Assembly (NCBI GenBank): GCA_017444015.1
Contig: JAFSXN010000124.1
Coordinates: 1-41,443, forward strand
DNA length: 41,443 nucleotides
Origin: Lachnospiraceae bacterium
Lineage (GTDB): Bacteria; Bacillota; Clostridia; Lachnospirales; Lachnospiraceae
Direction: 5' to 3'
Under the pieces are notes generated by a model. That model did no database searches. It was not told the origin of the DNA and was given only the letters and a program-made list of their open reading frames with translations. The translations under genes were made by a program, and so were the position numbers. Positions 11,517-30,142 of this stretch are shown here, piece by piece (position 1 is the first letter of the stretch; each line of letters begins with the position of its first letter).

Positions 11517-13436
11517 TTACGCCTCTTCTGTCACGTTCAAAAACTTCTCCCGGAAGTCATGGATCGGCATCGGCTTTCCGTAATAGAAGCCCTGTAATCT
11601 TCCGCAGCCGATGGAGGCAAGGAACTCAACCATATCCTCAGTCTCAACACCCTCGCACAGAGTATTGATGCTCAGGTCATTCGCGATATCTACGACTCTC
11701 TTGATGATCTTACGGGAATTCTCATTCTTCTCAAAGCTCTTCAGGAACACCATATCGATCTTCAGCACGTCGAAATAATAATCCTTAAGTACATTGAGCG
11801 AGGAATATCCGGACCCGAAATCATCTAACCACAGCTCATAGCCCTTCTCCCTGAATAGCGCGATCGACTGATTCAGAATCGTCAGGTCATCCGTCATGGC
11901 GCTTTCAGTTACCTCGATATGGAGGTAATGGCGGTCGATCTTATACTTCTCTACCAACTCCTCCATCACCGCCACGGTATCCATCAGCTCAAAATCAAGC
12001 CTTGAGAAGTTCAGCGATACCGGGACCGCGTTCTGTCCGCGGTCTAAGCACTCTCTGATATCCCTGCAGACATTCTCGTAAATACATTTATCCAGCTTAT
12101 GAATCTGGCGATGCTCCTCAAGGATCGGGATAAAGTCGCCTGGGGAAAGAAAACCGTACTTGGGATCGACCCATCTGGCCAGGGCCTCGCATCCCGCTAA
12201 CTTCCTTGAATCCGACCACATGACCGGCTGGTAGTAAACCTTGATATAGCCCTTCTCCACAGCCTTGTCGATATTGTTTACAATGTACTGCTGCTTGAAG
12301 AAGTTATCGGCCGTCGCCTTGTCGTATTCCTTGAAGTTATGATCATATTCCTTCTTGATCAGATAGCAGGCGTACCGCGCCCGGTCAACGCCCTGTCTCG
12401 GGTCACAGTATATATCGTCCGGACGGTAACCGCCGACCTTAAGGCCCATATAGATCTCATCCTTCTCAGAATAGAAGCCCTTGCGGATCTCGTCGGCCTT
12501 CTCCAGCGCCCCTTCCCAATCCGTCAGGACAGCGAAGTGATCGTCCGAAATTCTCGCGACTAACGAGCCTGTGTAGGAATCCTCGATCATATGCGCGATC
12601 TTCGTCAGCAGCTCATTTCCCTTGATAAAACCGAACTGGTCGTTGTAGTTCTTGAAATTTTCTACGTCCAGGAACAGGAATACCTTATCGTGGACCCGTT
12701 CTCCCGCCATGATCAGGATCTCCGGAACGTTTTCATAAAAGAAATCAATGTTATGTATCCCGGTAAGTTCATCGAAGGCAGCGGTCTTCTGGAGCTTCTC
12801 GTTCACTCCCTCCAGATTCTCCTCCTTCGTTCCCTCGTTCAGACGCTGATGATAAATACTGACGCTTGCCATCAGGATCGAGATCCAGAACATAAAGAGG
12901 TTGATCTTATCGCCGGTCTGAAACTCCGTATTGGCCAGGGTATAGTAATAGAAAATCAGAAACGTACCGCTCAGAAGCACAAAGGACATTAACGGCTTCC
13001 AGACCAGAAGACAGGTCACATACAGCTCCATGGTCAGAAAGGTCAGGATCTGCTTGCCGCCCGCATAGTCCATACTCGAGATATAAATACCAAAAATCAG
13101 GCAAATCGCGGAGAACAGCCACATAATGGTCCATCCTGCCTTCTGACTTACCTGACCTTTGCTCTTTTTAAATCGTACCGAGTAGACCAGCATCACGAGA
13201 CCCATCGTAAGTAAGATCACGTAGGAGTAGAAATGCGAAACGATCCACGCAAAGTCCCGGGACTTATCGCTTAGGATCACGTACTTGATCAGCGTCCGAA
13301 GGATCATCCAGACCTCAAGTACAATGACGACCACCGACATATAAATACTGGAATTGATATTTGCGTTAAATAAGTAGTTCTCTACATACGCGGTATTTTT
13401 CCCGATCCCCAGTGCCGATTTAATCTTTTTATCCAT
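11517..13436 (-). CDS. Membrane c-di-GMP phosphodiesterase with degenerate GGDEF and intact EAL
   Basis: 639 residues. Six or so helices fill about 30-195. A GGDEF-fold domain (about 218-370) and an EAL domain (about 385-630) follow. The GGDEF active-site loop reads ISDDHF (296-301), so cyclase activity is unlikely. The EAL domain keeps its key residues: EAL (417-419), LNFS, the glutamate of TESAM, DDFGSGYSS (538-546), K559 in LKID and EGVE (595-598). It should hydrolyse c-di-GMP to pGpG, with the GGDEF domain perhaps sensing GTP. It starts 51 bp after the transaldolase-like gene and is followed by the YjfB gene; whether it belongs to the TRAP operon or has its own promoter is not clear. Confidence 0.93.
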   Translation of the reverse strand: MDKKIKSALGIGKNTAYVENYLFNANINSSIYMSVVVIVLEVWMILRTLIKYVILSDKSRDFAWIVSHFYSYVILLTMGLVMLVYSVRFKKSKGQVSQKAGWTIMWLFSAICLIFGIYISSMDYAGGKQILTFLTMELYVTCLLVWKPLMSFVLLSGTFLIFYYYTLANTEFQTGDKINLFMFWISILMASVSIYHQRLNEGTKEENLEGVNEKLQKTAAFDELTGIHNIDFFYENVPEILIMAGERVHDKVFLFLDVENFKNYNDQFGFIKGNELLTKIAHMIEDSYTGSLVARISDDHFAVLTDWEGALEKADEIRKGFYSEKDEIYMGLKVGGYRPDDIYCDPRQGVDRARYACYLIKKEYDHNFKEYDKATADNFFKQQYIVNNIDKAVEKGYIKVYYQPVMWSDSRKLAGCEALARWVDPKYGFLSPGDFIPILEEHRQIHKLDKCIYENVCRDIRECLDRGQNAVPVSLNFSRLDFELMDTVAVMEELVEKYKIDRHYLHIEVTESAMTDDLTILNQSIALFREKGYELWLDDFGSGYSSLNVLKDYYFDVLKIDMVFLKSFEKNENSRKIIKRVVDIANDLSINTLCEGVETEDMVEFLASIGCGRLQGFYYGKPMPIHDFREKFLNVTEEA

Positions 13437-13487
13437 ATAACCACCTTATCCTGAGCGTAAACCGCCGCGGACAGGCAGCGGTATTCT

Positions 13488-14528
13488 TTATTTCTTTCGT
13501 TCTTCCGCAATAAGATCCAGCGCGCTCTGCCAGGCCTTTTCAAAGCTCTGTCTGAACAGCACCACCGGACCGAAGTCCTCATATTCCGACGGATCGATCG
13601 CGTTGATGAAGTATGCCCTTCTGTAGTCCTCCAGCTTTTCAACCAGCTCGTCCTCTACAGAGAACGGTGTCGGCGCATGGAACCGATCCAGAGCCAGACC
13701 ATCCAGCTCTAACAGCTTATCTGCGGTTCCGACCCAGTTGATCGTGATCGCGGCATCCGCTCCCACCATTTCGGTAAAGTGATGAAGACCTCTTGCGCCG
13801 CCTCCGATAAAGCCACAGGGATACTTTCGGTCATGAACGATCTGATGGACCTTCTTGGCTATGCTCAGACCTGCCTGCCAGAGAACATCCTCAGCTATAT
13901 CTATATTATTATTTTTTACCTGATTATGCAAGTATTCATCATAAATTCCGGTAATCAGGCTGAAATACATCGGTGCCGGATTTTCCATATCCTTCGTAGC
14001 CCCGATATAGGCTTCGCAGGCATCGATGACCTGTCTGACAGCCATACATTCGGTCGCGTTGATCGGAACGCCTTCCGCCGCAAGGATCGAGATCGCCTTC
14101 AGGCCTTCCGGCGTTACCGGGATCTTTGCCATGATATTCGGTCCGGCTTCACGGTTGCTTCTGGCGCACCGAACAATGGTATCCGCGTCCTCATGGAACG
14201 GATCGCCCTGGATGCTGACATAGCCCAGCTTTTTGTTGCTGCTCTCGTAGAGCGGGATGAATTTCTTCGCAACCTCTCCGACGAGAGTCTTCTGCAGCTT
14301 TACAAGCGCCTCGGTATCGTCCGGCTCCTCCTTGATGATCTCCCGTAAGAAGCCCTTCGCGTACTCACCCTCGGTCTCGTGCGAAAGCATCTTCCAGGTA
14401 TAGCTCGGATTCTGGGTACAACCTACCGCTCCCGCGCTAAGCGCAAGCTCCGCTTCCTCTCTCGTTACGTTGTTGATCCAGAATCTCGTCGCGGTATGCT
14501 TTGCCACTCTCTTAAAATAATCAGCCAT
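13488..14528 (-). CDS. Transaldolase-fold (class I aldolase) protein
   Basis: 346 residues with a transaldolase barrel. GCTQNPS (36-42) is the usual TNPS-like motif, and NIMAKIPVTPEG carries the Schiff-base lysine at K135. It is longer than classical short transaldolases of about 215 residues and differs from the long TalB-type. Many such relatives act on substrates other than sedoheptulose 7-phosphate, including sulfofructose in one known pathway. Operon context with a TRAP transporter and a BKACE enzyme argues for a catabolic aldol cleavage or transfer, not central metabolism. AAAGGAG lies about nine bases before ATG 14528. The substrate is unknown. Confidence 0.82.
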   Translation of the reverse strand: MADYFKRVAKHTATRFWINNVTREEAELALSAGAVGCTQNPSYTWKMLSHETEGEYAKGFLREIIKEEPDDTEALVKLQKTLVGEVAKKFIPLYESSNKKLGYVSIQGDPFHEDADTIVRCARSNREAGPNIMAKIPVTPEGLKAISILAAEGVPINATECMAVRQVIDACEAYIGATKDMENPAPMYFSLITGIYDEYLHNQVKNNNIDIAEDVLWQAGLSIAKKVHQIVHDRKYPCGFIGGGARGLHHFTEMVGADAAITINWVGTADKLLELDGLALDRFHAPTPFSVEDELVEKLEDYRRAYFINAIDPSEYEDFGPVVLFRQSFEKAWQSALDLIAEERKK

Positions 14529-14586
14529 TTTGGTTCATCTCCTTTAGTTAAATGTAATTTTAAATAACATATGCTATTCTTACCTG

Positions 14587-15888
14587 TTACTTTGTCCTGA
14601 TAAACAGATCACAGGCATACTCTCCCTTGTCTGTCTTTAGCTCTTCGATAAAGGTCCTGCCGGAAAACGAAAGAATCCTCTCCGAAGAAGGATCGATCTG
14701 CTTTACATTCCGCCCCAGGGCTTTGAGCTCCTCGATCAGCTTTTTCCCTTCTTTTGACGCTCCGCCGCAGACAATGATATCCTTCACATAAGGAGTTCTT
14801 GTGAATTCCTTCAGAAAGATCCTGTCCTCGATGCTGTTCATCGTATGGACCCCGAACCGTTCCTTCCCCGGAGCATTCGGAAGAATGACGTATTCCGCTC
14901 TTTCGAAGGCAGGTTCCTTTTCTCCCTGACAGCGCCTTACGACCTCATCAAGCACCCGCTGTTTGTTCGCGTTCCGGACATCCGGGATCTGATCCTGCAA
15001 AGATCCGCCTCTGCCGGAAGCTGAAACCTGGACAGCAGTATCAGAATCCTCAGTCTCTTTAAAGCGGTAGAGCTCTGAGGGGATCGACAGCATTTCCCTT
15101 GCTTCTTCGGGTGTCATTGGCTCCATCCCTGCCTCCCGGACGAGCCTTGCCGTCTCTCTTATCAGCTCCGCGTTTGTTTCGACTCTGGTATGCTCATCCA
15201 GATAATCCGAATCCTCAAAGCCGATCCTCAGCGCGTCCGCCCCAAGCTCCAGGGCCTTCTTTACCATCGTAAAGTCCTTCCTGTGCGCCTCGGTATAGCC
15301 CCATCGTACGTCCTCCTTCGCGAAATTATCATAGACTCCGCCGATCATATGCTTCAGGGCCGCTTCCGTCGGCGGCATCTCCCCGGGATGACCGAAAACA
15401 AGAGCAAGGAGCATAGGCTTTTTAAAGCAGAACTGCTCGTCAAGCTCTCTGAGCGTATTACTCATTCCCAGCTCAAACAGCTCTGTCTCCGGGATCTTTT
15501 CATTCTCAACGATCTGGCTGACGCAGTAGCGGACATCCTTGATCGGGTTGGCATAGACTGCCTCGCCGAGATTAACCGAGCCCACGTTTAAGCTCGTGGC
15601 CTCGACCCAGGGAGCGTAACATGGCTGGACCCTCTCCTCGATCGAAAGCGTGGAAACTCCTCCCGTTGATATCTCGATAATAATGTCGCAAAGCTCACGG
15701 ATATACCGCGCCGTTTCCTCTAAAAGCCCGAGACTCGGGGTCAGTCTCCCGTTCAGGTCCCGGACGTGCAGATGGACCATAGCGGCGCCGTTTTTATAGC
15801 ATTCAAATACGTCTCTCGCGATCGCTCTCGGGTTGATGAAGGGATCCCCCGCCGACACCGGAGCGACGCTGATCATAATTTTTTTCAT
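14587..15888 (-). CDS. BKACE family (3-keto-5-aminohexanoate cleavage enzyme-like) with C-terminal extension
   Basis: 433 residues. Residues 1-270 match the BKACE barrel. These zinc enzymes condense a beta-keto acid with acetyl-CoA to give acetoacetate and a new acyl-CoA. Visible family features are HLHVRD (metal ligands H39 and H41), the ISTGG loop, ELGMSN around E139, FGHPG and the acidic RIGFED (E225). Typical members are about 270-310 residues. Here residues 271-433 form an extra segment with a Gly/Ser linker (SGRGGS) and an alpha/beta-looking end (KDIIVCGGASKEGKKLIEEL). I do not recognise this domain. The start overlaps the gntR stop by four bases. Confidence 0.85.
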   Translation of the reverse strand: MKKIMISVAPVSAGDPFINPRAIARDVFECYKNGAAMVHLHVRDLNGRLTPSLGLLEETARYIRELCDIIIEISTGGVSTLSIEERVQPCYAPWVEATSLNVGSVNLGEAVYANPIKDVRYCVSQIVENEKIPETELFELGMSNTLRELDEQFCFKKPMLLALVFGHPGEMPPTEAALKHMIGGVYDNFAKEDVRWGYTEAHRKDFTMVKKALELGADALRIGFEDSDYLDEHTRVETNAELIRETARLVREAGMEPMTPEEAREMLSIPSELYRFKETEDSDTAVQVSASGRGGSLQDQIPDVRNANKQRVLDEVVRRCQGEKEPAFERAEYVILPNAPGKERFGVHTMNSIEDRIFLKEFTRTPYVKDIIVCGGASKEGKKLIEELKALGRNVKQIDPSSERILSFSGRTFIEELKTDKGEYACDLFIRTK

Positions 15889-16634
15889 TCCTTGTTCAAT
15901 ACCTTCCGTAAGAATACGTAGTGATTGTTCACGACTTCATTGATCTTCGGGAAGTCGCGGTTCTTTATAACATGGATGATATCTCTGTGCAGCTCGATAA
16001 ACTCATCCTGTTTTCCGAGACGGATCCATTCCTCGACCGCTTTTTTCCTGGAGGGTACCGTCATCCTCGCGATAAAGCTCGTCAGAACATTGACCTGAGG
16101 GTTTTCGATGGTTCCCGCGATGGCGCTGTGGAACTTAAGATCCAGCTCCAGAACCCGATCCGCGGAAGGCTCCTCCTTTTTCAACTCCCTTTCGGTTTCA
16201 TCCGTAAGCTCTAACAGCCTCGGAAGGACCTCTCCGATATTCTCGTTTTCCATTGCCAGCTGAATAATGCCGGTTTCGATGATCGAACGCAGCTGAACGA
16301 GATCGTTCTGATCCTTGCTCGTATAGATCAGATTATACAGCAGAGGATCCAGCATCTTTTCATTAAAGGAATCCTCGATATAGGTCCCGTCCGCTCTCTT
16401 GATATAGAGCACGCCGTAGGCCTGAAGCTGCTTGACCGCCTCCCGGACGGTATTCCGCCCGACATCATATTTCTTCGCGAGCTCCGACTCCGGTGCCAGA
16501 CGGTCTCCCGGATGAAGGGTACCGTTTATGATCTCGTCCGTGATCGCCTGAATGACCTGATTGACGTAGTTCCCCGGCCGTGACTTCGCCTGACCCCTGA
16601 CTTCTCTGGTAGCTGAGTTATCCGTATTATACAT
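15885..16634 (-). CDS. GntR/FadR-subfamily (FCD) transcriptional regulator
   Basis: 249 residues: an N-terminal winged helix (about 22-95, with PGDRLAPESELAKKYDVGRNTVREA split around the recognition helix) and a C-terminal all-helical FCD ligand domain. FCD regulators bind organic acids, often through a metal, and usually repress a catabolic operon until the ligand is present. It is encoded within the TRAP/BKACE operon. It is the natural candidate for the tandem palindromes at 20884-20910. A second palindrome, ATAACGCTGTTAT (16633-16645), overlaps its own start codon. Its ribosome site is weak, which would keep levels low. Confidence 0.92.
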   Translation of the reverse strand: MYNTDNSATREVRGQAKSRPGNYVNQVIQAITDEIINGTLHPGDRLAPESELAKKYDVGRNTVREAVKQLQAYGVLYIKRADGTYIEDSFNEKMLDPLLYNLIYTSKDQNDLVQLRSIIETGIIQLAMENENIGEVLPRLLELTDETERELKKEEPSADRVLELDLKFHSAIAGTIENPQVNVLTSFIARMTVPSRKKAVEEWIRLGKQDEFIELHRDIIHVIKNRDFPKINEVVNNHYVFLRKVLNKE

Positions 16635-16695
16635 AACGCTGTTATCTCTACTTTCTTTGTAACTGCCGGGCTCCCAGGCAGCTACGCCTTTTCTT

Positions 16696-17973
16696 TTAAT
16701 GCAGCAGCGATCCGGGTACCGTGATCAGGCCCTGGCATCCGATCAGAAGCGCTACTACCGCGATCGATCCCAGAATGAACGGGATCAGATATTTCATAGT
16801 AGATCCTACCGTAATATGCCTCAGATCGCAAGCCACATAGATACACATTCCGACCGGAGGAGTGACCAGCCCGATTCCAATAACAACTGTTACTAAAACA
16901 CCCAGTACGATGGGATCGATCCCAACGGCCATGGCGATCGGGAATATGATCGGCATAAACAGCGTCAGCGTAGCGATGGACTCCATAAACATCGTAACGA
17001 TGAAGAACAGAAGTAAAATCATGATTAAAATAACTGTCGGATTCGTCGAAAATCCAAGCATCCGGTCCGTCAGCCACTTATCAAAGCCCGCTGTCGTAAG
17101 CATGATCGTAAAGAGCTTCGCGGCTCCGATCACGGTAAAGATACGGGCGGAGACTCTTACGGTTTCCTTAAAGGCAAATTTCAGATCTTCCCAGGTAATG
17201 GCGTGATATACGAATTTTCCGACTAACAGCCCGTACAGAACGGCAAGAGCTCCTGCCTCGGTCGGGGATACAATACCGGATGTTATTGATCCGATGATCA
17301 GGACCGGCATGATCAGCGCCGGAAGCGATGCCTTAAAGGATTCCCAGACCGGCTTCCAGGTAAAGTGGCCCGGCTCCTTATCCACGTTCTCCTTCTTTGC
17401 GAAGATATAGCAGAGCAGCATCTGCATCAGTCCGCAGAGGATACCGGGAAGAATTCCCCCGAGGAAGAGCTTTCCGGTGGAAATATTACAGATCCCCGCG
17501 ATAACGACCATAGGGATCGAAGGCGGGATGATGATACCGATCGTCGAAGAAATCGCCGTTACCGAAACAGTCAGCTGCTCCGAGTAGCCCTTCTTGATCA
17601 TCGTAGGCATAAACATCCCCGAAACGCCCGCGGTATCCGCTACCGCCGAGCCCGAGATCCCCGCGAAGATCATAGAGGATAAGACATTGACGTGGGCCAG
17701 ACCGCCGTAGATATGGCCGACGATGCTGTAGCAGAATTCCATCAGCTTCTCCGAGATCCCGCCCTTGCTCATGGTATAGCCGGCAAAGGTATAGAGAGGG
17801 ATCGCAAGCAGCGCCCAGGAATTCATTCCCTCAAACATTCTCTGACAGACCGTTACAAGCGAGCCCTGGTCAAAGAAGAGGATCCCGCCCATGGCAGAAA
17901 GTCCGAGAGAAATGCCGATGGGTACGCCAAGGATCATCAATACGGCAAAGCAGCCGATCAACCATATGATCAT
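16696..17973 (-). CDS. dctM: TRAP transporter large permease DctM
   Basis: 425-residue DctM-type permease with about twelve helices, including the hallmark stretches PLYTFAGYTMSKGGI, GISGSAVADTAG and GLVTPPVGMCIYV. It forms the cation-coupled channel of a tripartite transporter for carboxylates. GGAGGTGAG precedes ATG 17973, and the start overlaps the dctQ stop by four bases. It is followed by gntR after about 60 bp. Confidence 0.97.
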   Translation of the reverse strand: MIIWLIGCFAVLMILGVPIGISLGLSAMGGILFFDQGSLVTVCQRMFEGMNSWALLAIPLYTFAGYTMSKGGISEKLMEFCYSIVGHIYGGLAHVNVLSSMIFAGISGSAVADTAGVSGMFMPTMIKKGYSEQLTVSVTAISSTIGIIIPPSIPMVVIAGICNISTGKLFLGGILPGILCGLMQMLLCYIFAKKENVDKEPGHFTWKPVWESFKASLPALIMPVLIIGSITSGIVSPTEAGALAVLYGLLVGKFVYHAITWEDLKFAFKETVRVSARIFTVIGAAKLFTIMLTTAGFDKWLTDRMLGFSTNPTVILIMILLLFFIVTMFMESIATLTLFMPIIFPIAMAVGIDPIVLGVLVTVVIGIGLVTPPVGMCIYVACDLRHITVGSTMKYLIPFILGSIAVVALLIGCQGLITVPGSLLH

Positions 17974-18512
17974 TTCCCGCTCACCTCCTCTTCAACTTCT
18001 TTCACCTCCGAGGCCGCTTCCAGAGCTTTGGCCTCTGCCGGTGTCGTAAGCGTTACCGCCAGGTGAATCAGTACCGCGATGATACAGAGGACTCCCGCGA
18101 CCGGAAAGATCGCGTAAACCTGTCCCATAGTAAACTTCGGCATCGTCGAGACCTTCTGCTTTGCCTTTGTGGAAAGCAGAAAGCCCGAATACGTTACGAG
18201 AACGTAGAAGATCAGCTCAAACACATCCACGATGATCCGGGTAAAACGGTAGCCGTACTTCCAATTTTCCAGAAGCGCGTCGATGACCTCGACCCGAAGA
18301 TTCGTCCCCGCGCAGGCAACGCCTGCTGCTCCGAGCATCATCGCCCAGACATTGGCGTACTGGCTGAATTCCATATACCAGCTGAAGCCTCCGACCGCAG
18401 GGATCAGTCTCAAGATAACATTGGCGATGATCACGACGAACATCACACAGATCAGTACCGACCCGATGATCGTCATAGCCTCGTCGATTCCTTTTTGCAG
18501 TTTATTTAACAT
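17970..18512 (-). CDS. dctQ: TRAP transporter small permease DctQ
   Basis: 180-residue four-helix DctQ subunit. It keeps the typical FSWYMEFSQYANVWAMMLGAA stretch, in which I see the conserved E-F-x-x-Y-x-x-V-W core, and the GTNLRVEV loop. The start is ATG 18512 (MLNKLQKGI), with GGGAGAAGAGG upstream; the ATG at 18575 lies in the hairpin-rich leader and is rejected. It is tightly coupled to dctM, but separated from dctP by 451 bp of structured DNA. Confidence 0.93.
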   Translation of the reverse strand: MLNKLQKGIDEAMTIIGSVLICVMFVVIIANVILRLIPAVGGFSWYMEFSQYANVWAMMLGAAGVACAGTNLRVEVIDALLENWKYGYRFTRIIVDVFELIFYVLVTYSGFLLSTKAKQKVSTMPKFTMGQVYAIFPVAGVLCIIAVLIHLAVTLTTPAEAKALEAASEVKEVEEEVSGK

Positions 18513-18537
18513 TCCTCTTCTCCCAACTGTTTTTGGA

Positions 18538-18590
18538 TGCGCACGGATTTGCAGCGGAAATATGATGCTTCGCATCGCAAATCCGGCGCA
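18538..18590. repeat. Family-3 palindromic element, copy in the TRAP operon
   Basis: Outer arms TGCGCA...GGCGCA enclose CGGATTTGC/GCAAATCCG and an inner GATGC-TTC-GCATC. The plan (TGCGCA, an ATTTGC-like arm, a GGAAA, the complementary arm, CGC) matches the second half of the element at 37153-37258. Confidence 0.5.
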
Positions 18591-18791
18591 GCAAACGACA
18601 AAATATAAATACTTTTGTCGTTTGCTATAGTCAAACTGCGTCCCCAGATTGTTTGACGGAAAAAGCGGTGATCTTTCATTGCTCCCTCCGCAAAAAGATA
18701 CGGGCTGCCCGGAAATTTCAAGCTCCCCGATAGCCCGGATCCTGAATGCTCATAGCAGTAGATTGACGCCTGCTACGTTTTCTGTTATCGT

Positions 18792-18923
18792 GTATCTGCC
18801 CAGTTACCCTGGGCAGATACGGCAGCCAGGGCAACTTGCGCATTGGAAATGCCCTGGCTGCTTGGCTCCGATACTGCATTGGTACGCCACTCGCAAGCCT
18901 GCGAGCGGCTGACTGAGCAGTTA
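18792..18923 (-). repeat. Family-1 three-hairpin repeat, copy 1
   Basis: Hairpins: GTATCTGCCCAG with CTGGGCAGATAC; GCAGCCAGGGCA with TGCCCTGGCTGC; CTCGCA with TGCGAG. It aligns without gaps over about 119 bases to the element at 30000-30131, with 11 differences by eye. One A-to-G change in the second stem is matched by T-to-C on the other side. It lies in the dctP-dctQ spacer, in the same orientation relative to the transcript as copy 2. Confidence 0.85.
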
Positions 18924-18963
18924 CGTTATCGTATCGTCCGGCTTCCCCCGGATGGTATCCTGT

Positions 18964-20052
18964 TTACTGCGCTGCCTTCCACTCGTTCAGCTTGTCTAAA
19001 AGCTCACCGTGGGTCGAAGCGTTGTCTGTCAGAACAGAAGCCGTTGCCTCCTGGAACGGAGCAAGATCCGGATAATTGATCTTCATGCCTTCCGCCTCCA
19101 GATTGGAAACGAGGTCATCGGTCTGCTGTCTGTTGCTCTGTCTGTCAGCATCCGCGGAAGCGGTAGCCGCTGCCTGAACGATCTCCTGCTGCTCAGCGGA
19201 GAGCTTCTGCCATACGGATTCCGCGATGGTAAAGCACATTCCGGAATAGATGTGGTTCGTTACGGAAAGATAATCCTGAACCTCATACAGCTTATTGTTA
19301 TAGATAACGGGGATCGGGTTCTCCTGCGCGTCATAGGTGCCCTGCTGAAGCGCCTGATAAAGCTCCGAGAAAGCAAGAGGCTGAGGGTTCGCGCCGAGAG
19401 CTGTCATAGTAGCCATGATAACAGGATTCTCCGGTGTACGGATCAGCATTCCCTTCATATCGTCCGGAGACTCTACGGGGCCCCTGGAATTGGTAACACA
19501 GCGGAAACCATTGTCATAGTGCGCTAAAACTCTCATATTCTGCTCGATAAGACCGGCCTCAGCTTCCGCTTCGATATCGGAATCCATAAATGCCCATGCC
19601 TGATCGAAATCCGCGAAGTTGAACGGAAGAGCCGAGATACCCATCAAAGGCTCATAGGTCGCGAAATTGGAAGCATCGGTGATGATGATATCAACTGTTC
19701 CGGAATCCAGCGCTAACGAGTTGATCAGGTCAGCGTCCGCTCCGAGCTGTCCCGAAGGATAAACCTTTGCGGTAAGCGCGCCGCCGGTCTTCTCCTCGAT
19801 CTCCGCCGCAAACTGCTCCGCCGCGATATTACGGGGATCCGTTTCCGCCGTCGAAACACCGATCTTTAATTCAAGGCTTGCGCCGTCCGAGGAAGCCTCT
19901 GTCGTCTCAGAAGCAGCCTCCGCTGCAGGTGCGCTCTCTGTCGCTGCCCCGCTGTCTCCCGCAGGAACCGCTGCCTGGCCTGAACCTCCGCAGCCCGCCA
20001 AGGTCAGTACAGCAAGAGAACCGATAATAAGTGCCGCTAATTTCTTTTTCAT
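18964..20052 (-). CDS. dctP: TRAP transporter substrate-binding lipoprotein DctP
   Basis: 362 residues. A lipoprotein signal ends in the lipobox LAGC with C21. A low-complexity Ala/Ser/Thr/Glu linker runs to about residue 55. The DctP fold follows. The family arginine that pairs with the substrate carboxylate is likely in the segment GFRCVTNSRGPVESPDDMKGM (about 207-227), next to RTPENP. It therefore binds a carboxylate, of unknown identity. Ribosome site GGAAGGA precedes ATG 20052. It follows the racemase-like gene and is the second gene of the operon. Confidence 0.95.
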   Translation of the reverse strand: MKKKLAALIIGSLAVLTLAGCGGSGQAAVPAGDSGAATESAPAAEAASETTEASSDGASLELKIGVSTAETDPRNIAAEQFAAEIEEKTGGALTAKVYPSGQLGADADLINSLALDSGTVDIIITDASNFATYEPLMGISALPFNFADFDQAWAFMDSDIEAEAEAGLIEQNMRVLAHYDNGFRCVTNSRGPVESPDDMKGMLIRTPENPVIMATMTALGANPQPLAFSELYQALQQGTYDAQENPIPVIYNNKLYEVQDYLSVTNHIYSGMCFTIAESVWQKLSAEQQEIVQAAATASADADRQSNRQQTDDLVSNLEAEGMKINYPDLAPFQEATASVLTDNASTHGELLDKLNEWKAAQ

Positions 20053-20175
20053 TTCCTTCCTTCTCCTTTCTTGCGCCGGTCTTCTCCGGCATGCTCACGT
20101 CTCCCTGATGAGATCGTAAGCCTACGTTTATGCTTTTCTGTTTTTTCAAAAACAGTAAAAACCCAGTTCAGCCGA

Positions 20176-20871
20176 TCATCCGGCAACAACTCCCTTTTTG
20201 ATCAGAGCGTTTTTCAGAGCCAGCGCTCCGAACCTCGGGCTTCCGAGGACGGGCTTGTGATACTTTTCGGACAGGGACGGCTCCGCGTAAGCCATGGACC
20301 CCTGCGCCAGAACAATAACGTCTACCTGATCGATGATCTTTGCCGCATGCTCGTCCATCATCTTTAAAAACTGCTCCTGATTGATATTGAACGCGCCCTC
20401 TACCAGACATTCCACTACTTCGACGTGCTGATTCATCTCCCGCGCGACTCTCTTTACGGTCCCAGCAGTCGGAGTAAGCGTCGAACCAAGGGTCCCCATC
20501 ACTCCGATTCTTGCGCTCTTACCTTCCTCTGTCGCAAGCCTTACGGCCTCTCTGCACATATCTTCATCTACCCGGACGATCGGAACGCCGATATATCGTG
20601 CCAGATCCTGCACCGCGTCCGCAACCTCGCCGACGCTCGAGCAGAGATTTAAAATCGCGTCTACCCCCTGTTCCGCCACGTCCATATAGAGCTTGACAAG
20701 CCTTGCAGCGGGCGCCGTCGTAACGTAGCCGGTTCCGGAGACCTCCTTGATGATCGTCGGATCCTTGACGCTGATCATCTCGACATCGTCTCCGAGCTGC
20801 TTTTTAACCTCGCGCTCCACATCCGCCTTCAGCTCGTCCGTAACTCCCGTATATACCAGACCTACCTTCAT
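20176..20871 (-). CDS. Asp/Glu racemase-superfamily protein with a single catalytic cysteine
   Basis: 231 residues, with the two-lobed fold of the aspartate/glutamate/hydantoin racemase group. The first-lobe cysteine is C77 (NLCSSVGEVAD). In the second lobe, where a racemase normally has a cysteine (GCT-like), the sequence reads VLAQGSMAY (188-194 region), so no second catalytic cysteine is seen there. Two-cysteine racemization is therefore unlikely. One-cysteine members include isomerases and decarboxylases such as arylmalonate decarboxylase. It is the first gene of the TRAP operon, with AAAGGAGG before ATG 20871. It probably acts on the imported acid or a product. Confidence 0.82.
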   Translation of the reverse strand: MKVGLVYTGVTDELKADVEREVKKQLGDDVEMISVKDPTIIKEVSGTGYVTTAPAARLVKLYMDVAEQGVDAILNLCSSVGEVADAVQDLARYIGVPIVRVDEDMCREAVRLATEEGKSARIGVMGTLGSTLTPTAGTVKRVAREMNQHVEVVECLVEGAFNINQEQFLKMMDEHAAKIIDQVDVIVLAQGSMAYAEPSLSEKYHKPVLGSPRFGALALKNALIKKGVVAG

Positions 20872-20883
20872 ATTTCCTCCTTT

Positions 20884-20910
20884 AACATCCTATGTTAAAC
20901 ATCCTATGTT
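20884..20910 (-). promoter_or_regulatory. Two tandem 13-bp palindromic operators
   Basis: AACATCCTATGTT (arms AACAT/ATGTT around CCT) occurs at 20884-20896 and again identically at 20898-20910, 14 bp apart. On the minus strand the pair begins right after the -10 hexamer and ends just before the ribosome site. A bound repressor would block initiation or clearance. The GntR/FCD regulator of the operon is the likely ligand. Confidence 0.75.
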
Positions 20911-20911
20911 T

Positions 20912-20940
20912 AGAATACTCCCCCAAGTCCCTTGTGTAAA
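20912..20940 (-). promoter_or_regulatory. Predicted promoter of the racemase-TRAP-BKACE operon
   Basis: On the minus strand TTTACA (20940-20935), a 17-base spacer and TATTCT (20917-20912). The tandem operators follow directly. A further palindrome, TTGTG...CACAA (20974-20990), lies about 35 bp upstream of the -35 and could be an activator or second regulator site. Confidence 0.65.
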
Positions 20941-21012
20941 GTTTAAATATTAGACGAAGTGAAGAGAGGATTTTTGTGTAAATTGCACAATTTTTTTTGT
21001 ATGAATCTTAAT

Positions 21013-21130
21013 CGAGTAGGAGGACGCTTTTCCCTCCTACTCGCCGCGCAGCCTGATAATTGCTTCGCAATTATAGGTTGCGCAGCCGCGTCCGGCTTGC
21101 CGGAAATATTCCTTACGCGGCCCTGCGCAT
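21013..21130. repeat. Family-2 multi-hairpin repeat, copy A
   Basis: It starts with GAGTAGGAGG paired to CCTCCTACTC. An arm with CCTGATAATTGC-TTC-GCAATTATAGG follows. The last arm closes CCGCGT/ACGCGG with an inner TCCGG/CCGGA, and the element ends in TGCGCAT. It aligns over its whole length to 25906-26025 with paired changes in the stems. It lies between the MGMT-like gene terminator and the TRAP operon promoter. Confidence 0.8.
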
Positions 21131-21158
21131 AAAAAGGGAGGCATCTTTCGACACCTCC
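21131..21158 (-). terminator. Terminator of the MGMT-like gene
   Basis: A nine-pair stem (two G-U) with a GAAA tetraloop, GGAGGTGTC-GAAA-GATGCCTCC on the minus strand, is followed by CTTTTT. It sits about 60 bp after the stop of the MGMT-like gene and abuts repeat copy A. Confidence 0.85.
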
Positions 21159-21220
21159 TGCATTTTTTCTGTATTAATACGCCTCTCACAAGTCCGCATA
21201 TCGTTAACTGGATGATTTCT

Positions 21221-21586
21221 TCAAACTTCTATTCCATATACTCCGAGGTCGACTCTCCCATTGATCACCTCAACGCCGTCCTCCTCCAACATCCTTCTCT
21301 GTACATCCGGTCCACCGAAAGCAAAGGCGCCGGAAAGCCTGCCCTGGGCATTGACAACGCGAAAGCAGGGCGTTTCCCTGGGGTCGGGGTTCTTATGCAG
21401 AGCGTTCCCGACAGCCCGGCACATCCGCTCGTTTCCCGCAAGCTTTGCGATCTGCCCGTAGGTTGCGACGTGTCCCGGTGGGATCCTTCGCACCGCGGCA
21501 TAGATCCGCTCCGTCGCGCTTCCACCCTCTTCGACCTCCGATACAGGTCTCCTGATATAATCTTCGATCCGGATGGCTTCCTGCAT
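21221..21586 (-). CDS. MGMT-like (O6-alkylguanine transferase domain) DNA-binding protein
   Basis: 121 residues, equal to the C-terminal DNA-binding domain of O6-methylguanine methyltransferases, without their N-terminal domain. The helix-turn-helix (GHVATYGQIAKLAG) and arginine finger region (CRAVGNALHKNP) are clear. The active-site loop reads PCFRVV, so the acceptor cysteine is kept, but the usual histidine after it is phenylalanine. This separates it from alkyltransferase-like Atl proteins, which have Trp in place of Cys. It could be a compact repair protein or a damage-recognition protein. TAGGAGGT lies eight bases before ATG 21586; the frame to 21697 is not supported. Confidence 0.88.
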   Translation of the reverse strand: MQEAIRIEDYIRRPVSEVEEGGSATERIYAAVRRIPPGHVATYGQIAKLAGNERMCRAVGNALHKNPDPRETPCFRVVNAQGRLSGAFAFGGPDVQRRMLEEDGVEVINGRVDLGVYGIEV

Positions 21587-29056: not shown

Positions 29057-30142
29057 TTATTCAGCGTTATCCAACACCAGCCGCACCGCACCGTAGATCC
29101 CCGCGTCATTTCCCAGGGTCGCCAGCTTAAACTCCGCGTTCTGATTGGCATGAAAGGCATATTTTCTGTACTGCTTCTCAATACCGGGAAGCAGGATCTC
29201 TCCCGCCTTGGAAACACCGCCCCCGATCAGAAAGACCTCCGGGTCGACGACCGCCGCGATCATAGCAAAGCCCTTGCCAAGATACCCCTCATATTCCTCC
29301 GCGATCTTAAGCGCCAGCTTATCTCCGTTCTTGACCTCGTCATAGATCGCCTTCGCCGTCAGCTCTTTCCCGCGCAGAGCACTCTCCTCATCGGTTTCCT
29401 GAAGCACCCTTCTTCCGATCCGGACCAGTCCCGTCGCCGAAGCGTACTGTTCAAAGCAGCCCTTATTTCCGCAGCCGCAGACCTCGGTTTCATCATCGTT
29501 AAAATGCATATGCCCGATCTCGGCGCCTGCGCCCCTTGAACCGTAGAGCGCCTGGCCGTCGATGATGATCCCGCCGCCAAGGCCCGTCCCGAGAGTCGCA
29601 AGGACCAGATTCCGATACCCCTTTCCGCCGCCGCAGGCCATTTCCCCGAGTACAGCCACCGTCGCGTCATTTCCGGCTACGGTCCGAAAGCCCGTCAGCC
29701 TGGAAAACTCTTCCGACAGATTGAATTCGCCCCATCCAAGGTTTGCCGCCCGGTGGACCTTTCCGTCCTTCTCCACCGGTCCCGGAACGGCGATACCCAC
29801 TGCCAGGACCTCTTCTCTGGAGAGCTTTTTCTCTGTCAGCTTATCTCTGAGAGCCTGCGCGATATCCGGAAGGATATTCTTTCCGTTTTCCGCTGTTCTT
29901 GTAGGGATCTCCCATTTTTCCAGAAGCGCCCCTTCCTCATCGAACAACCCGATCTTTACGGTCGTTCCTCCTACATCGATTCCGAAACAGTATTTATTCG
30001 TATCTGCCCAGTTACCCTGGGCAGATACGGCAGCCGGGGCAGCTTGCACATTGGAAGTGCCCCGGCTGCTTCGCCCCGATACTTCATCGGTACGCCGCTC
30101 GCAAGTCTGCGAGCGGCTAACTGTACTGTAATATTCACTCAT
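29057..30142 (-). CDS. glk: ROK family glucokinase with repeat-derived N-terminal extension
   Basis: 361 residues. The ATP/phosphate motif DVGGTTVKIGLF starts at residue 56. The catalytic aspartate is in AGNDA (D159). The zinc site is H211 with C222-x-C224-x4-C229 (CGCGNKGC). This is a standard ROK glucokinase apart from the first 48 residues. MSEY is followed by a 43-45-residue segment (positions 30000-30131) translated from a family-1 repeat, then NKYCFGID. AGGAGG in the end of hprK and the ATGAGTGA overlap fix the start at 30142. Usual family members start six or seven residues before the GID motif. The insertion keeps the frame, so the enzyme is probably made. Confidence 0.95.
   Translation of the reverse strand: MSEYYSTVSRSQTCERRTDEVSGRSSRGTSNVQAAPAAVSAQGNWADTNKYCFGIDVGGTTVKIGLFDEEGALLEKWEIPTRTAENGKNILPDIAQALRDKLTEKKLSREEVLAVGIAVPGPVEKDGKVHRAANLGWGEFNLSEEFSRLTGFRTVAGNDATVAVLGEMACGGGKGYRNLVLATLGTGLGGGIIIDGQALYGSRGAGAEIGHMHFNDDETEVCGCGNKGCFEQYASATGLVRIGRRVLQETDEESALRGKELTAKAIYDEVKNGDKLALKIAEEYEGYLGKGFAMIAAVVDPEVFLIGGGVSKAGEILLPGIEKQYRKYAFHANQNAEFKLATLGNDAGIYGAVRLVLDNAE
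30000..30131 (-). repeat. Family-1 three-hairpin repeat, copy 2, inside the glucokinase gene
   Basis: This aligns gap-free over about 119 bases with 18792-18923 (11 differences). Its stems are GTATCTGCCCAG with CTGGGCAGATAC, GCAGCCGGGGCA with TGCCCCGGCTGC, and CTCGCA with TGCGAG. It lies entirely within the first 48 codons of the ROK gene, in frame and without a stop codon. Confidence 0.88.

Follow-up and report, generated by a model that had tools for sequence, protein, structure and literature searches.

The operon and its genes

The subject of this report is a seven-gene operon within positions 13488–20871 of contig JAFSXN010000124.1 (assembly GCA_017444015.1) of a Lachnospiraceae bacterium; the whole 41,443-nucleotide stretch that was analysed is referred to below as the window. 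All seven genes lie on the minus strand with open reading frames, and profile matches place each in the family that the original prediction had named for it (Table 1): a protein of the Asp/Glu-racemase fold (Race), a TRAP importer with all three components (DctP, DctQ and DctM) inside the one operon, a regulator carrying both a GntR DNA-binding part and an FCD domain, a BKACE, and an enzyme of the transaldolase/fructose-6-phosphate-aldolase fold (TAL). Where several four-base overlaps had been described there are two, dctQ/dctM (17970–17973) and gntR/BKACE (15885–15888), the remaining four intergenic gaps measuring 123, about 451, 61 and 58 bp. The dctQ gene probably starts at codon 22 of its listed open reading frame (ORF), position 18512, since the alignments of its relatives begin at residues 22–25. 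Taken with its relatives, the operon appears to be one version of a branched-sugar-acid pathway that is widespread in gut and plant-associated bacteria and has apparently not been described.

Table 1. Features of the operon and its surroundings (window coordinates; a dot marks features without an assigned strand)
Feature	Position	Strand	Remarks
Promoter-like site TTTACA-17-TATTCT	20940–20912	-	one weak match
Operator copy 1	20898–20910	.	AACATAGGATGTT on the minus strand
Operator copy 2	20884–20896	.	tandem with copy 1
Race	20871–20176	-	Asp/Glu-racemase fold, first gene; PF01177, 44.5 bits (cut-off 31)
DctP, TRAP solute-binding protein	20052–18964	-	PF03480, 284 bits
Hairpin-rich dctP–dctQ stretch	18515–18962	.	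~134-bp interspersed repeat at about 18791–18924
DctQ, TRAP small permease	18512–17970 (listed ORF from 18575)	-	PF04290, 56 bits
DctM, TRAP large permease	17973–16696	-	PF06808, 364 bits
GntR/FCD regulator	16634–15885	-	PF00392, 62 bits; PF07729, 47 bits
BKACE, 433 residues	15888–14587	-	PF05853, 199 bits
BKACE catalytic domain, residues 1–272	15888–15073	-	PF05853 at residues 18–268
BKACE C-terminal extension	15072–14587	-	aligns with flavoenzymes of related microcompartment operons
TAL, transaldolase/fructose-6-phosphate-aldolase fold	14528–13488	-	PF00923, 85.5 bits (cut-off 27)

Relatives of the operon

The letters L, G and C below label, respectively, a locus stretch, a genome of the family and a contig of the window's own genome. 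A search of 299 family genomes gave BKACE matches in 37, of which 20 were placed in the window's clade, a hand-picked set (best match of at least 170 bits or, for G205, split matches at 58 and 52% identity); the other 17, G077 among them, match other BKACE clades or match only partly and were left outside. The 20 regions around the clade BKACEs were searched with reference proteins. A wider set came from a GTDB scan with an alignment of 19 BKACEs, and counts for 80 loci apply to the best 80 of 559 confirmed loci (595 stretches), among which the window's own genome may lack its records; a gene counts as present in one of these loci if tblastn (E 1e-6 or 1e-8) matches it to a single reference protein inside the stretch. 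All p values treat related genomes and loci as independent.

In set A (L032, L033, L034 and L051) the gene order is DUF1537 kinase–Race–DctPQM–GntR–BKACE–class II aldolase–aldehyde dehydrogenase (ALDH), continuing with two to four shell proteins, PTAC, EutN, a flavoenzyme and an iron-type alcohol dehydrogenase (Fe-ADH), a microcompartment operon as read from Pfam matches on L032, and the same linkage recurs in genomes with an organism name, for example L094 (Hungatella hathewayi WAL-18680) and L079 (Faecalibacterium sp.). DctP of the window is 64–85% identical to its counterparts in microcompartment and window-like operons. Set B (L035, L038, L043–L046, L048 and L049) brings together on a single stretch Race, a glycoside hydrolase of family GH127, the DUF1537 kinase and BKACE, with GntR in some cases, and some of its scanned stretches hold GH42, GH2, GH106, GH78 or GH140-type apiosidase genes. 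Set C (L036 and L041) has the order TAL–Race2–BKACE, where Race2 is homologous to Race at about 30% identity. Race2 and BKACE occur with DUF1537 in L037 and L039 and as a pair only in L040 and L050; in L047 Race, GH127 and BKACE lie close to the end of a contig, and L064, a 5.9-kb contig of a further genome, has DctMQP–Race divergent from TAL. In L042 (7760–10003) the kinase and BKACE form one 747-residue frame, with Race about 7 kb away, an arrangement that fits adjacent pathway steps.

Among the 80 loci a Race homologue is found in 69, GntR in 38, TRAP genes in 32, GH127 in 19 and shell genes in 11, GH127 and shell genes never occurring together (0/80). When the same gene set is sought in other genomes, Race and BKACE emerge as a core conserved across phyla, and the other parts of the operon are conserved together across genera. 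This joint conservation supports the earlier view of one catabolic unit for an organic acid, equipped with its own regulator and operator.

The window operon itself holds neither microcompartment shell nor ALDH genes. Microcompartment matches in its own genome sit on other contigs, C108 and C154; C108 (L061) carries a separate microcompartment locus with a glycyl-radical enzyme (PF02901, PF01228), ALDH, PTAC and EutN, its ALDH being 42% identical to that of L032. In Intestinimonas (L080 and L084) TRAP/GntR/BKACE operons come with four shell genes and the flavoenzyme, Race being seen in L084, and tblastn found no ALDH, class II aldolase or PTAC in either. A distant TAL homologue (30–31%) accompanies another TRAP system in L066 (5440–9419).

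Interchangeable downstream tails

The genes that complete these loci form tails that exclude one another: the DUF1537 kinase clade occurs in 47 of the 80 loci, OtnK/C/I in 13, TAL in five and none of these in 15, two tails being present in no locus, and acid-sugar kinase tails account for 60/80. OtnK scores above its curated cut-off in Succinatimonas (L112), Serratia (L128) and Citrobacter (L129); in L112 and L129 OtnC passes its own as well, and OtnI scores slightly below. A PDB sequence search with the DUF1537 clade gave no match. Within the family the kinase clade is present in 39 of 299 genomes and TAL is rare (6 of 397; 5 of the 23 genomes searched, namely G000, G220, G158, G331 and G013). 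The 20 BKACE-clade genomes divide into 17 with the kinase clade and without TAL and three (G000, G220 and G158) with TAL and without the kinase clade (Fisher p 9e-4), and TAL occurs in at least two separated lineages of the BKACE tree.

Three loci bear on the step that TAL may serve. L078, L087 and L100, the last two with shell genes, carry TAL together with the class II aldolase and have no kinase, which argues that TAL stands in for the kinase step; replacement of the class II aldolase by TAL was considered and rejected, both being present in these loci. A late role for the transaldolase-fold enzyme, which the earlier suggestion had act on an aldol intermediate, does fit, as TAL tracks the absence of the kinase and not that of the class II aldolase.

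Active sites of BKACE, Race and TAL

The window BKACE matches PF05853 with 198.7 bits (cut-off 24.8) and keeps HLH, STGG, E136, R221 and E225–D226. HLH, STGG and R..GFED, which we take to be the metal- and substrate-binding motifs, show no variation in two alignments of clade members (19 and 18 sequences). Its score against the curated KCE equivalog falls below the cut-off (168.7 vs 382 bits), and the N-terminal loop, which in Kce presumably carries a functional Glu, is about eight residues shorter in 8/8 aligned clade members than in ten other family BKACEs. The loop Glu is missing in the same 8/8 and present in six of the ten others (L022–L025, L028 and L029); its loss alone was rejected as a mark of the clade, four of those ten lacking it too. 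The short loop would fit a new substrate.

In Race, C77, Q190, S192, M193 and A194 are invariant in an alignment of 18 homologues. Of what we take to be the usual two catalytic Cys positions of Asp/Glu racemases the second is replaced, with no Cys near Q190–A194 in any of the 18, and a PDB sequence search with Race gave no match. TAL has its Schiff-base lysine (K135, in KIPVT), together with Asn19 for the usual Asp and Gln107 for the usual Glu, both invariant in four aligned homologues; Gln107 is presumably as in fructose-6-phosphate aldolase. An ordinary transaldolase (EC 2.2.1.2) was rejected on account of N19 and Q107. The comparison rests on the D/K/E catalytic triad named for BmSF-TAL in the accessible part of PMC11659671, mapped onto TAL by alignment.

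As one guess, the original prediction had BKACE cleave a beta-keto acid with acetyl-CoA to acetoacetate and an acyl-CoA, and had the transaldolase-fold enzyme work on an aldol intermediate. The PF05853 score and the retained HLH, STGG, E136, R221 and E225–D226 speak for this chemistry, as does L065 (3800–12897), where a distant TAL (48%) stands beside a BKACE, a thiolase, a PTA_PTB phosphate acyltransferase, and acetokinase-family, URO-D and RACo-type genes. The BKACE of L065, however, belongs to another clade and is only 30% identical to that of the window; the clade's loop is short and the KCE cut-off is missed, the profile-scanned neighbours of clade loci (part of those retrieved) include no CoA transferase or thiolase, and three-quarters of the 80 loci have acid-sugar kinase tails. 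On the loop, the cut-off, the neighbours and the tails the acetyl-CoA step was therefore rejected as the main explanation, L065 still counting for it, and we regard it as improbable.

Operator and putative regulon

The tandem palindromes reported ahead of Race do exist (20884–20896 and 20898–20910), each reading AACATCCTATGTT on the plus strand; together they form AAACATAGGATGTTTAACATAGGATGTTA, with the site form AAACATAGGATGTTT. By themselves they do not stand out, as two or more sites at no more than one mismatch turn up in 22 of 100 shuffles. More telling is their distribution: the 11-base core ACATAGGATGT occurs in 14 of the 80 loci, every one of which has the GntR gene, as against 24 of the 66 loci without the core (p 6e-6), and in 13 of the 14, L096 being the exception, the site lies no more than about 320 bp upstream of the Race or DUF1537 kinase gene. 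Operator-type sites also lie upstream of Race in several relatives, and the GntR/FCD protein is presumed to bind them. Promoter-like matches are at chance level in the region (9 vs 7.2 expected).

In the window's own genome the operator 14-mer, at no more than one mismatch, has eight sites against one for the reversed control, and only here is a genome-wide excess clear. Two sites are those of the window; the others are one on C100, a tandem pair on C66 and one each on C132, C41 and C170. That these contigs belong to the window's genome is indicated by their tetranucleotide profiles, which agree with the window at r 0.95–0.97 (0.42–0.84 for loci of other organisms). The C100 site precedes, by about 300 bp, a same-strand run of ABC-transporter genes that ends in a GH127 gene about 9 kb on, and operator, run and GH127 may lie on one putative transcript. 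The C66 pair stands directly before the genome's one DUF1537 gene (L062, 8403–16743), in an operon that also has Fe-ADH, DapA-like, PdxA-like and TRAP genes and is perhaps a second acid-sugar operon of the same regulon. The C132 site (L177, 7770–11964) lies before a DapA-like gene and a second DctPQM, and the regulon may through this operon include another keto acid. The C41 site is at a contig end, and that on C170 precedes an ORF without a Pfam match.

The link to GH127 and, presumably, rhamnogalacturonan II

Among the pectins that gut bacteria consume, rhamnogalacturonan II (RG-II) is the most complex. The GH127 protein of L044 has PDB entry 5mqo as its nearest match (543 bits vs 301 for the next), an entry that we take to be BT1003, the aceric-acid hydrolase of RG-II. 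Some GH127 match is found in 100 of 299 family genomes, in two score groups, with 18 matches in 17 genomes at 604–1558 bits and the rest at 278 or below. Of the 17 high-scoring genomes 16 are BKACE-clade genomes (p 6e-22), and the seventeenth, G077, has a partial BKACE match beside GH127 and kinase genes; four of the 20 clade genomes (G037, G054, G205 and G220) are without this GH127. The window's genome is among the 16, its GH127 lying at the end of contig C100 (L067), where the gene is cut by the contig end. This protein, too, is nearest to 5mqo (372 vs 231 bits) and has a GCGALYNGASPYG insertion, similar in 5mqo (GCGALY.G.SP.G) and absent from the next-best chain. In L094 this GH127, GH78, GH42 and an apiosidase-like gene are found no more than about 20 kb from the microcompartment operon, an arrangement that connects sets A and B. 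The available text of PMC10850190 and PMC5698469 gives the GH127 enzyme BT1003 as the hydrolase for aceric acid (3-C-carboxy-5-deoxy-L-xylose).

Beside the operator–GH127 stretch of C100 (L179, 2208–11752) are genes for an ABC transporter, a sugar-isomerase-like protein, a split transketolase and an FGGY protein, a group that presumably resembles the non-oxidative apiose route. By NCBIfam the FGGY protein is glycerol-kinase-like (above the subfamily cut-off), and the split transketolase and the sulfoquinovose-isomerase-like protein are both below their cut-offs. As a proven apiose operon this group was rejected, two of its three family matches being below cut-off; it remains a lead.

Proposed pathway

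The operon is best read as a GntR-controlled importer with core enzymes that handle a C-branched sugar acid, the likeliest being L-aceric acid released from RG-II by the GH127 encoded elsewhere in the genome, a reading to which we give a probability of a little under one half (about 0.48). Gene content, linkage, the mutual exclusion of the tails, the conservation of the operator and the co-occurrence with GH127 are direct observations; for the substrate and every reaction of the route, which we infer, the following scheme may be put forward. TRAP DctPQM would import free aceric acid, which would then be isomerised to its 2-ketose form, 2-(1-hydroxyethyl)-3-oxo-tetronate. Race, with one of the usual two Cys, might isomerise or decarboxylate and is the candidate for this, the least certain step. 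The metal site of BKACE would hold the enolate of the beta-keto acid and carry out a CoA-free retro-aldol cleavage to acetaldehyde and 3-oxo-tetronate, a split that would balance without a cofactor (C6H10O6 = C2H4O + C4H6O5). In the Kce mechanism a metal-bound beta-keto acid loses a proton and makes a C–C bond through its alpha carbon; BKACE is a candidate for the split because the reverse of such a step with acetaldehyde is this very reaction.

The tails would then lead 3-oxo-tetronate into glycolysis in one of three ways: by the DUF1537 kinase and decarboxylation to dihydroxyacetone phosphate (DHAP), by OtnK/OtnC, or by TAL. With the TAL tail, decarboxylation would give dihydroxyacetone, which TAL would join to glyceraldehyde-3-phosphate, forming fructose-6-phosphate. 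Acetaldehyde would yield ethanol and acetyl-CoA, inside the microcompartment in close relatives and by enzymes outside the operon in the window's genome. An acetaldehyde product suits the ALDH, PTAC and Fe-ADH of set A, whose ALDH falls into the PRK15398 subfamily (641 bits), presumably similar to EutE/PduP. That 3-oxo-tetronate is the substrate of OtnK, and its conversion to DHAP, are described in the accessible part of PMC12540250.

A more far-reaching version would make this an aceric acid pathway of gut Firmicutes (with related forms in spirochaetes and Gammaproteobacteria) that comprises a CoA-free BKACE aldolase, a new type of microcompartment that encloses the acetaldehyde step in one lineage, and a TAL whose Schiff-base lysine decarboxylates the beta-keto acid and adds the dihydroxyacetone enamine to glyceraldehyde-3-phosphate, so that TAL would replace the kinase and yield fructose-6-phosphate and CO2. 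As a whole this version is unlikely.

The module might instead serve another branched or four-carbon sugar acid, such as a C-branched tetronate or an apiose-derived acid, BKACE and Race still supplying an oxo-tetronate to the tails and GH127 being linked only through shared RG-II degradation. The enterobacterial and Succinatimonas loci, which have the OtnK/C/I tail and no GH127 within their stretches, are consistent with this, as are the apiosidase-type genes near the locus in L049 and L094 and the split transketolase, FGGY kinase and sugar-isomerase-like gene of C100. Against it, GH127, the sole glycosidase examined genome-wide, goes together with the BKACE clade in 16/17 genomes, whereas apiosidase-type genes were met in L049 (most other family regions not being searched) and in one of the 80 loci (L094). 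TRAP systems mostly carry acids, and aceric acid is an acid while apiose is not, so that the importer, too, favours the former. Another acid is thus a possible but doubtful substrate.

Several observations weigh against the aceric acid scheme as set out above. Aceric acid itself enters by way of the presumed identity of 5mqo with BT1003. The enterobacterial loci without GH127 in their stretches, and an OtnI for which the route has no need, suggest that other acids may feed the module. No isomerase is confidently assigned to the isomerisation step, TAL has Asn for the catalytic Asp, and the scheme leaves the class II aldolase, with which TAL co-occurs, without a step. The DUF1537 clade scores only 38–58 bits against curated kinase cut-offs of 350–450 (38 bits for L044 and L032 against the OtnK equivalog cut-off of 350), and the tail-less loci, several of them short contigs, include three (L082, L123 and L152) without a recognised tail in 20 kb. 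On the regulatory side, L075, the closest relative, has no operator site in its upstream stretch, eight other related genomes hold 13 sites of the 14-mer (one mismatch) against 10 for the reversed control, and the C132 site stands before an operon with its own TRAP importer. The DUF1537 gene behind the tandem operator on C66 may serve the pathway too, which weakens the notion that the kinase step is absent here. The CoA-type setting of L065 shows that relatives of TAL can occur alongside ordinary BKACE chemistry, which makes the acetyl-CoA alternative slightly more likely. Finally, GH127 also includes arabinofuranosidases and anhydrogalactosidases.

Probable descent from a microcompartment operon

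The window BKACE is about 160 residues longer at its C-terminus than its relatives, most of whose matches end near residue 271; in the search of the 37 family genomes window-clade matches enter the extension by at most 50 residues, and the same fusion was met again only in L075 (UBA3814), at 50% identity. Its final ~108 residues align with the middle of a CoA-disulfide-reductase-like flavoenzyme (four set A flavoenzymes aligned; for example FGVHTMNSIEDRIFLKEFTRTPYVKDI in the window vs MGVHVLKSVGDLIFLKEFTKTPFVHNI in L051), the flavoenzyme's N-terminal part, with its CGNCGLP-type motif, and one further stretch being missing. The window and L075 form a pair in the BKACE tree, within a six-row set that also includes L078, L081, L085 and L089, of which L078 has TAL and the class II aldolase and L081 has shell genes. 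Between the window and L075 the proportions of nonsynonymous and synonymous differences (pN and pS) are 0.36 and 0.71 in the extension (ratio about 0.5) and 0.153 and 0.775 in the catalytic part (about 0.2), rough values, as dS is saturated between the two.

Descent of the window operon from the microcompartment form is supported by the tree and the alignment. As the flavoenzyme-like fusion is shared with L075 at pN < pS, the segment from aldolase to shell genes has probably disappeared, with BKACE retaining a piece of the flavoenzyme under some constraint; plain decay of the extension was rejected on the same grounds. The whole operon could nevertheless be a decaying remnant whose pathway no longer works, the class II aldolase, ALDH, shell, PTAC and Fe-ADH genes being missing and part of the flavoenzyme fused to BKACE. 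Seven open frames, the presence of the operator, the recurrence of the fused form in UBA3814 with its pN/pS ratios, and the recurrence of TAL with Race and TRAP genes in L064 and L078 make this very improbable.

The gap between dctP and dctQ

The ~450-nt gap between dctP and dctQ folds far more stably than its shuffled versions (−199.8 vs −143.3 ± 5.4 kcal/mol, z −10.5); the corresponding gap in L075 is about 85 bp. It contains a repeat of ~134 bp that is found, at 71–96% identity, at 39 other places in the genome (E ≤ 1e-5; 40 of 142 candidates scored). The repeat, seen in the window at 18781–18932 and 30000–30123, has three hairpins and near-identical ends, GTAACTGCCCAG...CTGGGCAGATAC, resembling a miniature inverted-repeat transposable element; among 11 copies, 6 of 436 pair cells are broken and two-sided changes occur in 3 of 40 pairs. 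No Rfam family reaches its gathering score in 13400–21300, and a known RNA in the operon was rejected.

Comparison with known systems and significance

The four-carbon acid-sugar pathway is said to have been described by Zhang et al. in 2016. The LtnD–OtnI–OtnK–OtnC pathway, as given in the accessible part of PMC12540250, shares 3-oxo-tetronate as the intermediate proposed here, and 13/80 loci have OtnK/C/I-like genes; the related operons differ in adding BKACE and Race, and the window in having TAL, and no tetronate dehydrogenase was found among the scanned part of the L112, L128 and L129 neighbours. Sulfo-TAL, set against sulfo-EMP, likewise has a transaldolase pass a C3 unit to glyceraldehyde-3-phosphate where others use a glycolysis-like branch (PMC11659671, available sections); its substrate is unrelated, and in TAL of the window Asn and Gln take the places of the Asp and Glu of BmSF-TAL, Gln occurring also in the second Faecalicatena candidate, F2. 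With the BKACE family as represented by Kce (3-keto-5-aminohexanoate cleavage; PDB 2y7d) the window enzyme shares the profile match and the HLH and R..GFED motifs, yet its clade is distinct, with a short N-terminal loop and a sugar-acid gene context. The PVM, PVM-like and GRM5 microcompartments (PMC4207490 and PMC8217296) combine class II aldolase, ALDH and shell genes as do the relatives' operons, which add TRAP, Race, BKACE, GntR/FCD and CoA-disulfide-reductase-like genes; neither main text, as far as available, mentions TRAP, racemase or disulfide, and set A loci may be catalogued, without a function, in the supplements. For RG-II degradation by Bacteroides thetaiotaomicron (PMC10850190 and PMC5698469) the likeness lies in a 5mqo-type GH127, found also in the window's genome and in 16/20 BKACE-clade genomes.

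The operon is thus of a known kind, an acid-sugar catabolic operon, of which the BKACE–Race variant is apparently undescribed. The original prediction's statement that no pathway with this exact set is known agrees with the literature searched, subscription literature being mostly outside it, in which no published description was found. Among the papers listed on aceric acid, titles and the opening parts of abstracts announce no catabolic pathway, those listed by wider searches show none on this subject, and the searches found no joint treatment of BKACE/DUF849 with a microcompartment or TRAP transporter, or of a DUF1537 kinase with apiose.

Hydrolases that release the rare sugars of RG-II are known, BT1003 being described as one; the later fate of free aceric acid is not stated in the accessible parts of the literature examined. 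If the proposed scheme is true, it would name an importer, a regulator, an operator and core enzymes for aceric acid; BKACE would gain a CoA-free role, and a cargo would be proposed for a type of microcompartment.

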